A stretch of DNA of 64,000 nt from Galdieria sulphuraria (Eukaryota; Rhodophyta; Bangiophyceae; Galdieriales; Galdieriaceae), in NCBI RefSeq assembly GCF_000341285.1, contig NW_005178473.1, forward strand, positions 236,365 to 300,364, read 5' to 3'. Below, in pieces: positions 5,833 to 19,439 of this stretch. The notes beneath the pieces are model-generated. The model was not told the DNA's origin. It worked only from the letters and a program-made list of their open reading frames with translations, and ran no database searches. The translations under genes and the position numbers were made by a program. The stretch's first letter is position 1; the number at the start of each line of letters is the position of its first letter.

Positions 5833-8800
5833 TCATTTCAAACTTTTCATACGAAGTCTTCCATAAAATTCAAAACTACCCAAGTTTATCTTTCTACAAG
5901 GAGGCCTCGCAATAACTCGAAAATATCTGTAAAACACCTGTGAAGTGGGTTCCTCTAGTCTCCAGGTTGCTCTTTGCAATGGAGACTGCAAGGTTTCATC
6001 ATTTTGATGCTCTTTTAATACAGTCCAGCTTTTACCATCTTTGCTGCCTTCGAGGCACCAATTTCGTAAGAAATTCGACTCGGAGCCATCATGAGCAAGC
6101 GTATAGAATGAACAGGCAAGAACCCTTTCAGCTCCCAAGTCTAGGGCAAACCAGACCAACGAACTAGAGTTTGATAACGCAAAGCAAGAGCGGTTGACCG
6201 AACTTTCAGCGAGACTTTCGAGCTTCGCAAAACGACTGCCTGATGAAGAAGTTATACTGACAATGTTATACTTGTGAGGATTCACTCGCGTTCCTCCCAG
6301 TTGCAAACCATAAAAACACCCTAAATAATAAAGTACACCAACCGAATGCAACTTCGGTATATAGGGAATCCATACTTCACCCGGAGCGATTCGAGGGATG
6401 GTTCCATAAATTCTATTCCATTCTCTTCTTAGAAATAACCACTTTTCTTCGTCTACTTTAAAGGTGAACTGTGGCGGGATCCATTTGATAGGTTCAAGTT
6501 TCACAAACTGAAAGGATTCAAAAATCATTGAATGTGGCTGTTCGAAGACTTCAGAAACGACACTGTCATTTGTGAATAGGCTATTTGACAAATTTTCGAC
6601 ATTTCGATTGCTAGATGCTCCACTTTTGGCATAAATATGACATTCTATATCTTCCGAAGCTAGGATTCGTCCGGAAGAAGTCTCTTCTAATTGAAAAAAT
6701 TCGTGAAGATGATACTTCTGACCGATGCTATTTAATAACGACGGCTCAACCAATTTCTGCCTTACCATGAAGAACAAACCTTGCGCAACTGAACTAGAAG
6801 AATGGTTGCCTTCGAGCCATTTGAGAACTATTAGTGCAACTTCATTTTCATCTTGAACCTCCAAGTCCATGCGACTCAAAATATGCAGAAAACAATCTTC
6901 ACGAAGGCAAGAAAATTCAGTCTCTTGAGACACTTCATGAAAATGAGAACAAATAAAATCTGTTGCACATTGAAACAAGTCAAAGAGTTCGCATTCAAGA
7001 GATAGATTTGCTAAATGTATAACATTGGAAGTATTAAGAAGGTTTCTCAGACAAGTGGACGCTTCCTTTTTAAAACGGGCAACATCAAACATATCACCAA
7101 CTCTAACGTCATTCACAAACTCTAACCACAAATCTGCATCTTCATCGAGTTTAGCCGTTCCATAAACAGGTTTCTGATATATTTCATTCAGCATTCTTTG
7201 GAAAGAGAGAATATCCACATTACAAATTTGAATTTTGTCTTGTACCATTTCTCTCATTCCACTTGAAAACATTTTTAAAAAATAATTACTTCTAGAAGCC
7301 AAAACAAGTCGATGAACATGAAAGGAAACATACCGACGACTACGATCTCCTTCTAAATGGTCTGAATAAGTAGACATGGCATTACTGACTGAAACTGTCT
7401 GTTCCTCTCTAAACAGACACACATGAGTCAATCCATCTAAGGATAAAAGGTAATCTTGAACTTACTCTAAAGGTAAAATCAGTTCTACATCCGATAAAAA
7501 TGAAGAGTCCATGAGGTAATTTAAATAAGAAATAAAGTCATTCATGAAACTCTCTGGATAATATTCGGATATATTTGATATGAAATCAAAACTATCTAAA
7601 TGGAAAATATTTCCGGCTTCTGAAAAGGTCCAATCTTTGAACATAGGAGCCAAAGTAGAAACTTGCCATTCTTCAATCAGAGCTTTACATTCTTTCCATG
7701 TTTGTTGATCACGTCCAGACAAGTTTAAAATGATGTCATCGCTCTCCATTCTATAGAATTGTTTCCTATCCAATCCAATTCCATACAACAACTGAACAAA
7801 CATAGCAGTAGCGGGTGTAGAGGCACAAATGAGAATTCTTGGAACATTTTTGGAAACTCGTTCAATCAATTGAATATTTTGCTCGTTCCAACTTGGCGTG
7901 CTCATTAAGAAAATTTTACCGTAGCCATTATTCCAACAACTGCTTTTTTGGCTTTGATGTGTTATCGGCCATTCAAACAACTCCTTAGATCCTTCAAAGA
8001 AGCCACAAAATAGAATTCATTTTAAATGTCTGATATACTATCCTACCTCTTCTACAATTTAAAGTGGAGTGAATAGCTTTATCGACCGCTTCCCTCAATC
8101 TTTTACTCCAGAGACCAACTACGCAGCCATGACAAGGAAACAAACTACCATCAGAAGATTCCAAAAAGATATCATGAAAGCATCTATTGAAGTAGTTTCT
8201 TGCAACTAGGAAAAAGTTGCTAATGAAGGACAAACTCTCTTTTGTAGTTGATGGTATTAGTCCTTCAGTAGTAGGAAAGACTTCAAAAAAACAAAATATT
8301 ACAGGCTGATGCCAAGAAGAGACTCCAATCTGAAAGGAACTGCGTACTGGTTCACTATCTTCCCACTTCAGGAACACACAAGAACCAACAGAACCTTTGC
8401 CTACTACAATTACACCGTCTTTGATACATATCCAATATTTTTCAAAGTTCCAAGAGTTGTCGAAACTTTGCCAAGCAGCAGCTGTTGTTGTTGTAGACTG
8501 CTCAACGCCACTTCCTACTCCGATACTACTGAGAGCTCTAACAACTCCTCGCTTCCGAATGACACTTTTTTTATTACAGTAACTGCCAATTACAGTTTCA
8601 TATTCAGCACGTTGCGAACTTTCAACAGTCAAAACCTGGTCATCCTCATGCACGTCCTCTGGTGTTGAAGAGAAAAATACTCCAATATCTGATGCTCCTC
8701 TGGCTTCAAAACAAACAATACCGTTTCCAGGGAAAGGAAACTGTAAGCCAGAAAGCCACAAAGGTTTTGCTCTCCTGCCACTGATTACTAAAACTCCTTC

Positions 8801-15608: not shown

Positions 15609-17666
15609 TTAACTGAGTAACACTTGATCGAGCAAGGAGAGACAAAGCAAACTTTCATTACAAATTCGGTTCCTCATCTCTTCAGGTATGTTAAAGGAAA
15701 GGTCAGGCCTAGGACTCCTACTAGGAGCATAAAGTTCATCTACTATCCTACTGAGTAAGATTCTTACACCTTTTGCTCTACATTCCAAATTCTCTTTGCA
15801 CTTTGCGACATTTTCCTGTCGTTTTAGTCTCCAGATGATAAATGCCAAGATATGAATGGCACTGGAAACTAAAGGCAAATCTTCCAAAAAACTCATACGG
15901 GGAGCGAGGAAATTGGCAAACAAGAAATCTGACAGCCAGCTCCACAACCTGTACTGATTCTCTGTAGCCTCGAAACAAGTCGAAGACGCTACAAGGGCTC
16001 TCGTTGCATCAATATCATCTTCCATTTTCAACATCGCCTCTTTCATTTCATGAAGCAATTGTGCTTTTATGCCTACCGTGGTCGACATCATGAGACAAAA
16101 ATACACAACTTGCCACTTTATAAAAGGGTCTGGCAAACAATGAATACAGGTATTTATGACTTCATATGAAGCTCTGTTATGATAAGCTGTTTTGTCGAGA
16201 TACTGCAAAAGAAGAGTAAATATCATCAAAAGTGAGGAATCGTGCACTGAAATATTCTCACTAAGAAATCTGTTAAATAAAAGCTGCCAAGTCAAATAAC
16301 TACTCTCTTACCTGAGATGACAACGATACTTGGCTTTTTGCAAAAGTCGTAGCACTTGATTTCCTCTGAAACCAATCACAGTGTTTGAAACTGTTTCTTT
16401 ACAGAGCCATAGGGCCATGACTTTGTGAGCGGACCACTTCGACTCGAACAAAGCTGCAATAGGTGCCAAATACAAGTCTAGCTTGCATTTGGAATCAAGA
16501 AAACAATCGTCTTCAAAAGGCGAAGACTTTAACGACAAGAATAAATAACAACCTGCGGAAAGAAATGAACATGGCTTCTCTTTGAATTCTTCAACCATTT
16601 CTGCTATATATCCTGTGGAAACCAAACTAGACTGAAGCTTGAAGATTTCTTGAAAGATTGTCTCTTCCGGGAGCATGCATAAGCTCAGGATCTGAGTACG
16701 ACGACAAATGGATAATTCTCGTAACAAAGTTACAAGAGAAATACTATATTTCCATAATTCTTGTTGATTAAGGTTCTAAAAACAATGACGTTCAATACAA
16801 CCTGCTTAGAACTGACTTGGGATGGTTACCTCTTTCCCTGCAGTGCCAAATATTGATACGTCTGTGAAGAAAATCGATACCCACTTGATGAGATCCAATA
16901 TAACAAGTACTAGCTGACATCTAACTGTTGTGCTGACACGAAATCTATCGAGTTTGGGTTTCATGACGGAATCTTTCAGGAGATTAAGAACAGAAAAAGA
17001 CAACATGCATACATTCATAAAGCTATTCTCTAAAAAATGACTACAATCTCTTTCTTCTTCATACAACAAATGGGGATCTGAACCAATGTCATTGGAAAGC
17101 TTATTGTTCCATGCAATATCAATCACCTTCAAGATGCTTTCAATATCCGAAGGAAATATAGCTTGACACTCTCGTAGAAAGTCAATACAGACTAGTAAAA
17201 AAATTGGAAAGACTCTCGAAAAAAAGTTTTTAGCAATATTTTGGAGGTTCACAACTTCGTCAAGAACAACTATGAAAAGTTCTTTGGGCTTGCCACGTGA
17301 GACGCAACAACGACAGAGAGAAAACACCTTCTCAGACAATTTGCTGGTTCTTGGCTGTGTTGCTAAAATTCTTAAACAAGGTCCCAGCAATTCGAGAGCA
17401 AATACTTCAGCTACGCCTGCAGAGATGTCGTTATTTATACACACTTTAAGAGCTTCAACAACTACAACAGACGATTCTTCAGGCCAAGTTTCTGTCTTTG
17501 GATCTTCCAAGATCTTCAAAAAATGTTTTGTACAACTCAAAAAGTCTTCTTCCGTAACAGCTTGTTTACGGAATCCATTCAAAGTTTCCAAGACTCGGGA
17601 GGACTCCATAAAACGCTTCAACAGTGACAATTCGTCATATTGTCTAAATTGTTCATTTTTACACAA
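15609..17666 (-). CDS. GLMN: Glomulin / ALF4-family protein
   Basis: Three exons: 16830-17666, 16312-16775, 15609-16269; introns of 54 and 42 nt close in phase, giving 653 residues. The protein is almost entirely alpha-helical (HEAT-like) without catalytic motifs. Resemblance to glomulin includes GKPKELF (glomulin NPKELL region), the LLRELS segment and a C-terminal IPEEMRNRI...LSLLDQVL that parallels glomulin PPEMQ...FDLIESVL. Glomulin and plant ALF4 bind RBX1 and block E2 access to cullin-RING ligases. The start codon lies only 28 nt from that of the divergent PCMT-BTB gene. The assignment rests on a few motifs in a fast-evolving family. Confidence 0.6.
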
Positions 17667-17694
17667 GAGAGACTGTTGAGGTGGACACTTTATT
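17667..17694. promoter_or_regulatory. 28-bp divergent promoter gap
   Basis: Only 28 nt separate the start codons of the glomulin-like gene (minus) and the PCMT-BTB gene (plus). Both 5' leaders and promoter elements must lie in this gap or inside the opposite gene. Nearby sequence is mixed with no TATA box. Confidence 0.5.
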
Positions 17695-19439
17695 ATGGAC
17701 CACCAGTATAGTGGTGAGGGCGAAGATAGGTTTCAAGGATCAGAGCAATCTGCTACAAACTCAGAGGCAAGTTTTTCGCAACGTTCTGTAGGGGAAAGTG
17801 TCGCGGGTCAACATTCACCTGAGAGTGAAGGAAGTGATGATGCACCCTCTGAGTTTCCGGAGAGAATTTCCTTGAGGCATTTGCTAACATTAGTGACTAA
17901 TAATAACCCGAATGTTTTAAGGGCCTTTTTAGGAGGTGAAAGTCCCCAAAGCAACGAAGAACTCGTTCAGTATTTGAAGAGGAACGGTAGCATATCGTCA
18001 AAGAAGGTAGAACATGCTTTTCAAGTACTTCCAAGAGATTTGTTTGTGCCTGAGAACCAAAAAAGCCAAGCTTTTGACAATTATCCCCTGCGAGTCGAGG
18101 AACTTGGCTTCAATATTTCAGCTCCCGAGGTAAAGGACCTCTACTGTTGTTTTGAGAAAGTCCTAACAGAGTCTGAATAGATGTATGCTGTTGCACTTGA
18201 ACACTTGAAGATTGAAGAAGGTGATAGAATATTGGATATTGGTTGTGGTTCTGGTCATCTAACTTGTTTGGTAAGAATTGCCTTTTGATAGAAAAGTAAT
18301 GCTGAATCCTAGGAATCTTAGTTGGCTTTTATGGCTGGTGGTTCTGGTCTTGTACGTGGTATTGAGCTATCTCGCGAGATTGCAGAACATTGCAGAAAGA
18401 ATGTTGAGCTTGCAAGGTTTTCCCGTCCTGAGTTTGCACAGAACGCGGCAGAAATAGAAATCATAGTGTCGAATGTGTTCTTTCTTGAGGAAGAAATCCA
18501 CACTAACGCATATAATCGAGTATATTGTGGTGCGACGTGTCCAGTAGCCTATTTAAATGATATTGTAAAGTTGTTGCAGCCAGGAGGCCTAATGATCTGT
18601 CCCATCGGAGATAAGCTTTATGTAATAAAGAGGAAGGAGAGCTCAACAGATTCTGTCCAATATAGTAAAGAAGCGGTAGCAGATGTTCGCTTTGGAAATC
18701 TAGTGATTCCTTCCAAATACGACATCCTTCGAGAGCGATATCGAAAGAGAATGTCCTCAAGATTTCAGTTGCAGCAACCAATTTCAAGTTTTGAATCTGC
18801 TTTAGGCTTCCAAGATGTTGAAAGTTTGTTCATGTCTTCTGAACGTAGCGACATCTCATTGCTGGTTCTAGATGATTCAAATAGCTGCAACGAAACAATT
18901 GAAATACCATCACATAAGTTTGTCTTATCTGCTAGGAGTGGACATTTCCGTGCACTTTTTCAGTCTCAGATGAAAGATTCGAAAAACACGACCGTCCATA
19001 TTCCCACAGAGTTTCCGTGGAGTGTTTTTAGGGAATGTTTGCGATATATTTACACGGATAAGGTAGTATTTCAATAGATTGATTTATGGCTTTCTACTGC
19101 CTTTTTGCTTCCTAGGCATACATTGATAACAACAACTGTATTCAAGCTTTGGAATGTTCGCGTTTTTATGATATACCAGAAGGCTTTAGTTATCTTTGTG
19201 AAGAACAGCTAAGGAAGCGTGCTTTGGCAGCTCCTAATGACGTGGCTTATGTACTGGCTATTGCTCATCACTATGCGTGTAAGAACCTCAAGACTTATCT
19301 GGCAAGTCATATTCTTCGTAACTTCAACTCTATTAAGATGACAGACAGTTGGAAAGAGATAGACCCTGAATTGGTGGACTTTGTCTTGGAAGAAGCGTAT
19401 GACACGTATACTTATTTGACTAGCTTATTTGACTTGTAA
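17695..19439 (+). CDS. PCMT-type methyltransferase fused to a BTB domain
   Basis: Exons 17695-18129, 18181-18270, 18322-19062 and 19116-19439; introns of 51, 51 and 53 nt close in phase; 529 residues. After an acidic Ser-rich start comes a protein-L-isoaspartate O-methyltransferase domain: LPRDLFVPE, NISAPEMYAVALEHL, the SAM-binding motif ILDIGCGSGHLTCL (about 161-175) and a later LLQPGGLMICPIGD. From about residue 345 a BTB fold follows: DISLLVLDD, IPSHKFVLSARSGHFRALF, FRECLRYIYTDKAY, then helices. PCMT repairs isoaspartyl damage; BTB domains usually dock CUL3. The fusion suggests a substrate-recognition subunit reading isoaspartate-like ends. All parts lie in one spliced frame. Confidence 0.85.

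Follow-up and report, generated by a model that had tools for sequence, protein, structure and literature searches.

Animal PCMTD1 and PCMTD2 carry a SOCS box and bind CUL5, and PCMTD2 was described in T cells as a CUL5 substrate receptor that targets IL2RB and CD247; the available part of that study makes no mention of isoaspartate in these two proteins where it describes their targeting (PMC10798966). PCMTD1 was reported, in the available text of two papers, to bind AdoMet as well as CUL5-ELOB-ELOC (PMC10798966; PMC11514484), and PDB entry 9oma is titled as a PCMTD1-ELOBC-CUL5-RBX2 structure. The excerpt of a review cites one study in which no isoaspartate-specific methyltransferase activity of PCMTD1 could be detected (PMC11514484). 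The gene described here encodes a red-algal protein that shares the PCMTD-clade methyltransferase fold with these animal CRL5 receptors (PDB 9oma, 9omf) but has a SPOP-like BTB-BACK part instead of a SOCS box, and CUL3 rather than CUL5 is its expected partner. The parallel with PCMTD1/2 had been drawn in the original prediction, and both PDB 9oma and the accessible portion of PMC10798966 support it.

The gene was found in a stretch of 64,000 nucleotides of Galdieria sulphuraria DNA, hereafter the window. Splicing the DNA in silico at three introns of 51, 51 and 53 nt, all with GT...AG borders, yields a frame at 17695-19439 on the plus strand that begins with an ATG at 17695, ends with a stop codon finishing at 19439, contains no internal stop and encodes 529 residues in four exons (Table 1). 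The single spliced frame, the three introns and the product length thus agree with what had been predicted. A distance of 85 bases separates its start from what we read as the probable start codon of a gene on the minus strand (ORF 16806-17732); immediately downstream follows a gene of the argininosuccinate-lyase type, also on the minus strand.

Table 1. Features of the PCMT-BTB gene (positions in the window)
Feature	Positions	Strand	Content and support
Exon 1	17695-18129	+	Residues 1-145: tail rich in Ser and Glu (1-83), followed by the PCMT fold up to SAPE; basis, spliced frame
Intron 1	18130-18180	+	51 nt, GT...AG; read unspliced it gives a stop at 18178-18180; insert absent in proteins P0001-P0004
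Exon 2	18181-18270	+	Residues 146-175: pre-I residues MYA; AdoMet motif I (LDIGCGSG)
Intron 2	18271-18321	+	51 nt, GT...AG; insert absent in proteins P0001-P0004
Exon 3	18322-19062	+	Residues 176-422: remainder of the PCMT fold, then the VRFGNLVIPSK segment, a linker and the first ~2/3 of BTB; single open frame
Intron 3	19063-19115	+	53 nt, GT...AG, inside BTB; spliced frame kept in P0001, P0004, P0005 and P0006
Exon 4	19116-19439	+	Residues 423-529 and stop: end of BTB, BACK-like helices
Extra intron, deposited model P0002 only	19279-19337	+	59 nt, frameshifting; without support from P0001, P0004, P0005, P0006
PCMT-fold domain	17950-18693	+	Residues 86-299, broken by introns 1 and 2; Pfam PF01135
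BTB domain	18835-19214	+	Residues 347-455, broken by intron 3
phi-X-(D/E) CUL3-contact motif M392-K393-D394	18970-18978	+	Alignment with M-E-E of SPOP

A Pfam search of the 529-residue protein identified its first part as PCMT (E 2.4e-32, 112.8 bits, above the gathering cut-off of 20.3) and its C-terminal part as BTB (E 6.7e-17, 62.1 bits against a cut-off of 20.5), as had been expected from the frame. Behind the BTB domain, residues 467-514 gave a weak match to BACK (E 0.0041, 17.6 bits, below the cut-off of 20.9). Among the relatives, BACK scored over this cut-off in P0004 (26.7) and P0005 (23.7) and under it in P0001 (17.9) and P0006 (15.7); in P0094 and P0103, PCMT, BTB and BACK are all over their cut-offs, as is BACK_BPM_SPOP in P0103. 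The predicted structure of P0001, the G. partita orthologue, aligns with SPOP through P0001 residue 524, and its residues 1-80 are predicted with pLDDT below 50. No MATH domain was found among the 18 Pfam families listed for the window protein, whose N-terminal part is PCMT; the protein therefore differs from SPOP and plant BPM, the MATH-BTB-BACK receptors of CUL3, in having a methyltransferase fold in place of MATH. Likewise, the search returned no SOCS box (PF07525) in the window protein at E up to 1, with the fish PCMTD protein P0013 as positive control at 28.2 bits. The protein also lacks the MGGAVS start of PCMTD1/2.

The PCMT-BTB architecture occurs in at least nine database records (P0001-P0006, P0094, P0103 and P0104), one of which, P0002, is this gene. 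P0094, P0103 and P0104 come from a listing of 120 of 226 matches, and further fusions may lie among the other 106; P0104 appears in its database record with the same PCMT, BTB and BACK domains. P0001 (537 aa) is 84-95% identical to the window protein across five regions, and P0004 (556 aa), whose label GphlegSOOS we take to mean G. phlegrea, is 49-68% identical across them, the Ser/Glu-rich tail being 84% and 49% identical, respectively. For P0001, P0004, P0005 and P0006 in this order, identity to the window protein is 89, 67, 42 and 40% in the methyltransferase part, 91, 67, 49 and 45% in BTB, and 95, 68, 26 and 25% in the BACK region; the last two values make BACK the less conserved part in distant relatives. 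P0006 carries the label MMETSP1475, and we presume that its CAMPEP/MMETSP label marks a transcriptome-derived sequence and that it belongs to strain CCMP1999. This strain is given, in the available text of PMC10250338, which does not name MMETSP1475, as a Bangiopsis sp. counted among the Stylonematophyceae red algae. A viral origin was also considered: when viral contigs were scanned with the alignment of the fusions and with P0103, 39 and 13 pattern matches came up, none of which was confirmed as a relative, a result that speaks only to close relatives in that collection.

To our knowledge, not every BTB protein binds CUL3. The BTB-BACK part of the window protein matches SPOP, both in the structure match of the P0001 model and in the sequence alignment, and M392-K-D394 is aligned with M-E-E of SPOP, so that phi-X-(D/E) of the alpha3-beta4 loop is present; M392 and D394 are invariant in the six aligned rows. 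This motif and the role of SPOP Met-233 in the contact with CUL3 are described in the accessible part of PMC6484134, where vaccinia A55 is given as a case in which phi-X-(D/E) is not absolutely required, and the motif alone is therefore not decisive. A search of the Galdieria genome (12.0 Mb, 102 contigs) gave ten cullin exon matches on four contigs, which we read as four genes. The gene on C49 is CUL3 (380 bits to human CUL3, 257 to CUL4A and 195 to CUL1), with LSYEELYRNAY at the place of LSFEELYRNAY in human CUL3, and that on C61 is CUL4, its searched piece being closest to CUL4A. For the cullin on C22 the searched piece is nearest to CUL1, with CUL2 close behind; for that on C23 the searched middle piece is nearest to CUL3 (98 bits) and the N-terminal exon is CUL1-like by eye, and it is perhaps a fast-evolving cullin. 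None of the four pieces searched, one per putative gene, was closest to CUL5. An RBX1-type RING is encoded on C46 (86.6 bits). The same genome gave no match to a SOCS box, but neither did the control genomes, which makes this a weak negative. Together, the retained phi-X-(D/E), the SPOP-like BTB-BACK part and the presence of CUL3 and RBX1 genes support the predicted CUL3 as the likely partner of the BTB part. Of seven BTB exon matches in the genome, two share a single gene-sized frame on C62. The window itself holds a second BTB gene (5833-7461, minus strand), in which BTB, BACK and an F5/8 type C domain share one frame, and another BTB match, on C7, lies in a frame of length similar to this gene.

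We consider it probable that the gene product is a substrate receptor of a CUL3-RBX1 ubiquitin ligase in which the PCMTD-type fold is the ligand-binding part; a receptor role through CUL3 is the most likely one by homology with the CUL5 receptors PCMTD1/2, from which we infer both binding and ubiquitination. BTB, with the BACK helices behind it, would dimerise and dock on Galdieria CUL3, and the PCMTD-type fold, held on a short flexible linker, would bind the target. By ancestry, the fold would bind a peptide in which an acidic residue has been modified or damaged, or some other peptide-like ligand, and AdoMet might act as cofactor or gate of target binding. The target would then be ubiquitinated instead of, or after failed, repair by the separate ordinary PCMT of Galdieria. 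The ligand that the fold would read may be isoaspartate or another one, and the pre-I motif bears on this point. SAPHMH is present in three eukaryotic PCMTs (human, fly and the Galdieria PCMT on C11) and in P0094, P0103 and P0104, which might on this basis still methylate isoaspartate; the other six fusions have SAPE[MV]YA, and 13 of the 14 PCMTD-type rows have SAPCIY. In the window protein SAPEMYA stands in place of SAPHMHA, which argues against ordinary repair activity, and with both His replaced, isoaspartate recognition may have been lost.

There is an appreciable, though smaller, chance that the protein is a ligase receptor whose fold serves purely to bind one dedicated partner protein and has nothing to do with damaged proteins; this reading shares the ligase step with the preferred one, and its probability is not meant to sum to one with the others. 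The SAPEMYA motif is in its favour, and so are the animal proteins, given that PCMTD2 targets IL2RB and CD247 with no isoaspartate mentioned there, in the available text (PMC10798966), and that one study, as excerpted in the review, found no isoaspartate activity for PCMTD1 (PMC11514484). On the other hand, the alignment shows the fusions to preserve the AdoMet motifs and the remainder of the fold well, suggesting that a ligand pocket is still in use.

We think it rather unlikely that the protein is a working protein-carboxyl methyltransferase in which BTB only dimerises or localises and no ubiquitin ligase is involved. BTB domains also mediate plain dimerisation, and LDIGCGSG in the window protein keeps the acidic residue and the glycines of motif I, so that AdoMet binding is plausible; the D of this motif is kept in all nine fusions, unlike in PCMTD1/2, where LD of the window protein is LN (N in the 14 PCMTD-type rows, as LN.GSGTG, and in the two protist rows). 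However, the BTB domain keeps the CUL3-contact motif with BACK-like helices, and the genome encodes a separate ordinary PCMT on C11, which scores 203.7 bits with the NCBIfam pimt equivalog (cut-off 159.05), whereas the window protein, with both His of SAPHMHA lost, scores 96.7 bits, 62 below the cut-off, and fish PCMTD 83.6. A substrate receptor that reads a ligand is favoured over a repair enzyme because the PCMT on C11 covers ordinary repair and the two His are gone.

The ancestry of the methyltransferase half was examined with the same domain of related proteins, and the MT-domain trees class the METHYLTRANSFERASE half as PCMTD-type; the AU test, the pimt model and the motif differences set it apart from ordinary PCMT. 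Among solved structures its best match by sequence is human PCMTD1 (85.3 bits, PCMT1 59.0), and in the same kind of comparison the PCMT on C11 gives 235 bits to PCMT1 and 58.5 to PCMTD1. The tree was built from 38 hand-chosen rows: nine fusions (the window protein, P0001, P0003-P0006, P0094, P0103 and P0104, with P0002 kept out as the same gene), 13 PCMTD-type and two protist rows from 120 of the 226 proteins found, P0007, 7 of 21 bacterial loci, five pieces of solved PCMT chains and the PCMT on C11; P0078 and P0106 were classed as PCMTD-type by sequence alone. The nine fusions, the 14 PCMTD-type and the two protist rows formed one side of this tree with support of 100/99, and the three eukaryotic PCMTs, including that on C11, fell outside it. 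When three long rows were dropped and columns were chosen more strictly, fusions and PCMTD again grouped at 100/99. As one group, the BTB fusions have support of only 76/61 in the 38-row tree and 81/79 in the reduced one, and the AU test did not decide between the red-algal-type fusions and the P0094/P0103/P0104 group as the closer neighbours of the animals (p-AU 0.374). Constraining the fusions to group with eukaryotic PCMT cost 24.2 log units and was rejected (p-AU 0.004). All 13 canonical PCMT rows have 3-5 residues inserted after motif III, but none of the nine fusions and none of the 14 PCMTD-type rows does; of the protist rows, P0120 has such an insert and P0108 does not. In eight of the nine fusions (not in P0004) and in all 14 PCMTD-type rows, [DN] of motif II is followed by Arg, and in the three eukaryotic PCMTs by Ala, but the archaeal 2yxe also has Arg there, and motif II is thus weaker evidence. 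The window protein hence differs from PCMT1/PIMT in lying outside that clade and below the pimt cut-off, in not keeping SAPHMHA, in lacking the insert after motif III and in its additional BTB-BACK part.

Judged from these sequence comparisons, the methyltransferase half is homologous to animal PCMTD1/2 and was inherited from a common PCMTD-like ancestor, since it groups with them at 100/99 and its placement with eukaryotic PCMT is rejected. The original prediction had proposed a convergent coupling of the fold to ubiquitination; convergence holds at most for the adaptor, BTB as against SOCS, and not for the fold. A red-algal fusion of BTB with an ordinary PCMT, unconnected with the event that gave rise to PCMTD, would agree with the annotation of the fold as PCMT and with the SAPHMH kept in P0094, P0103 and P0104. 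We reject such a fusion de novo as very improbable on the basis of both trees, the AU result, the score below the pimt cut-off and the differences in motifs, including the insert missing from fusions and PCMTD alike. As for the adaptor, BTB replaced SOCS, SOCS replaced BTB, or each was added separately, and the tree does not fix the direction. The two protist proteins P0108 (residues about 240-300) and P0120 (about 235-290), which are PCMTD-type proteins without BTB or SOCS in Pfam, have in common a C-terminal stretch WSP...RxAVxTxLL...R, which might be a further kind of adaptor or a SOCS box that has diverged. The animal PCMTD proteins P0045, P0066 and P0098 are listed without SOCS_box annotation, which may reflect truncated models, split boxes or real losses.

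The relatives also bear on the gene model. P0002, the deposited G. sulphuraria protein from the same gene, is identical to the spliced model over the first 476 residues, after which its extra intron puts the reading out of frame, so that the last part of the BACK region is lost; this splice could be a wrong model or an isoform. P0001, P0004 and the diverged P0005 and P0006 keep the 529-residue frame, which is thus better supported by comparison. P0003 (JGI, nine member sequences) reads the sites of introns 1 and 2 as if spliced out and continues beyond the intron 3 boundary for 15 residues of a different reading before it stops inside BTB, as could result from intron retention in an RNA-derived contig or from a gene call on unspliced DNA. 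The early end of P0003 and the BACK end missing from P0002 are points against the receptor reading, and so are the BACK score of the window protein below the Pfam cut-off, the low BACK identity to P0005 and P0006 (25-26%) and the modest support for the BTB fusions as one group. Although these same two records might suggest a gene-model or assembly artefact in which two separate genes are run together, we dismiss this as extremely improbable, given that exon 3 by itself covers the latter half of the methyltransferase fold together with ~2/3 of BTB, with no stop between them, so that their join is no artefact of splicing, and that at least nine database records, one with a CAMPEP/MMETSP peptide label, have the same domain order.

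Among the matches listed in a search of titles and abstract starts that covered few subscription papers, no paper on a PCMT-BTB fusion was found; the parts, a PCMTD-type fold and BTB-BACK, are known, and their combination would be new. PCMTD1/2 are little-understood ligase receptors with the fold of a repair enzyme, for which one study found no such activity, and a sister group with the same fold and the adaptor of another cullin would independently support ligase recruitment as the point of the fold. We put forward, tentatively, that the coupling of the PCMTD fold to cullin-RING ligases is old in eukaryotes and was kept while the cullin changed: CUL3, by way of BTB, in red algae and some other eukaryotes, and CUL5, by way of SOCS, in animals. 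If this is true, what the family conserves would be ligase recruitment rather than methylation, and the fold would serve as a general reader of degrons in modified or damaged peptides. The gene offers a compact and testable system, in a thermophilic alga whose proteins are expected to be damaged fast, for degradation versus repair of isoaspartyl or otherwise altered proteins, and the coupling of this fold to ubiquitin tagging may have survived a switch of docking partner.
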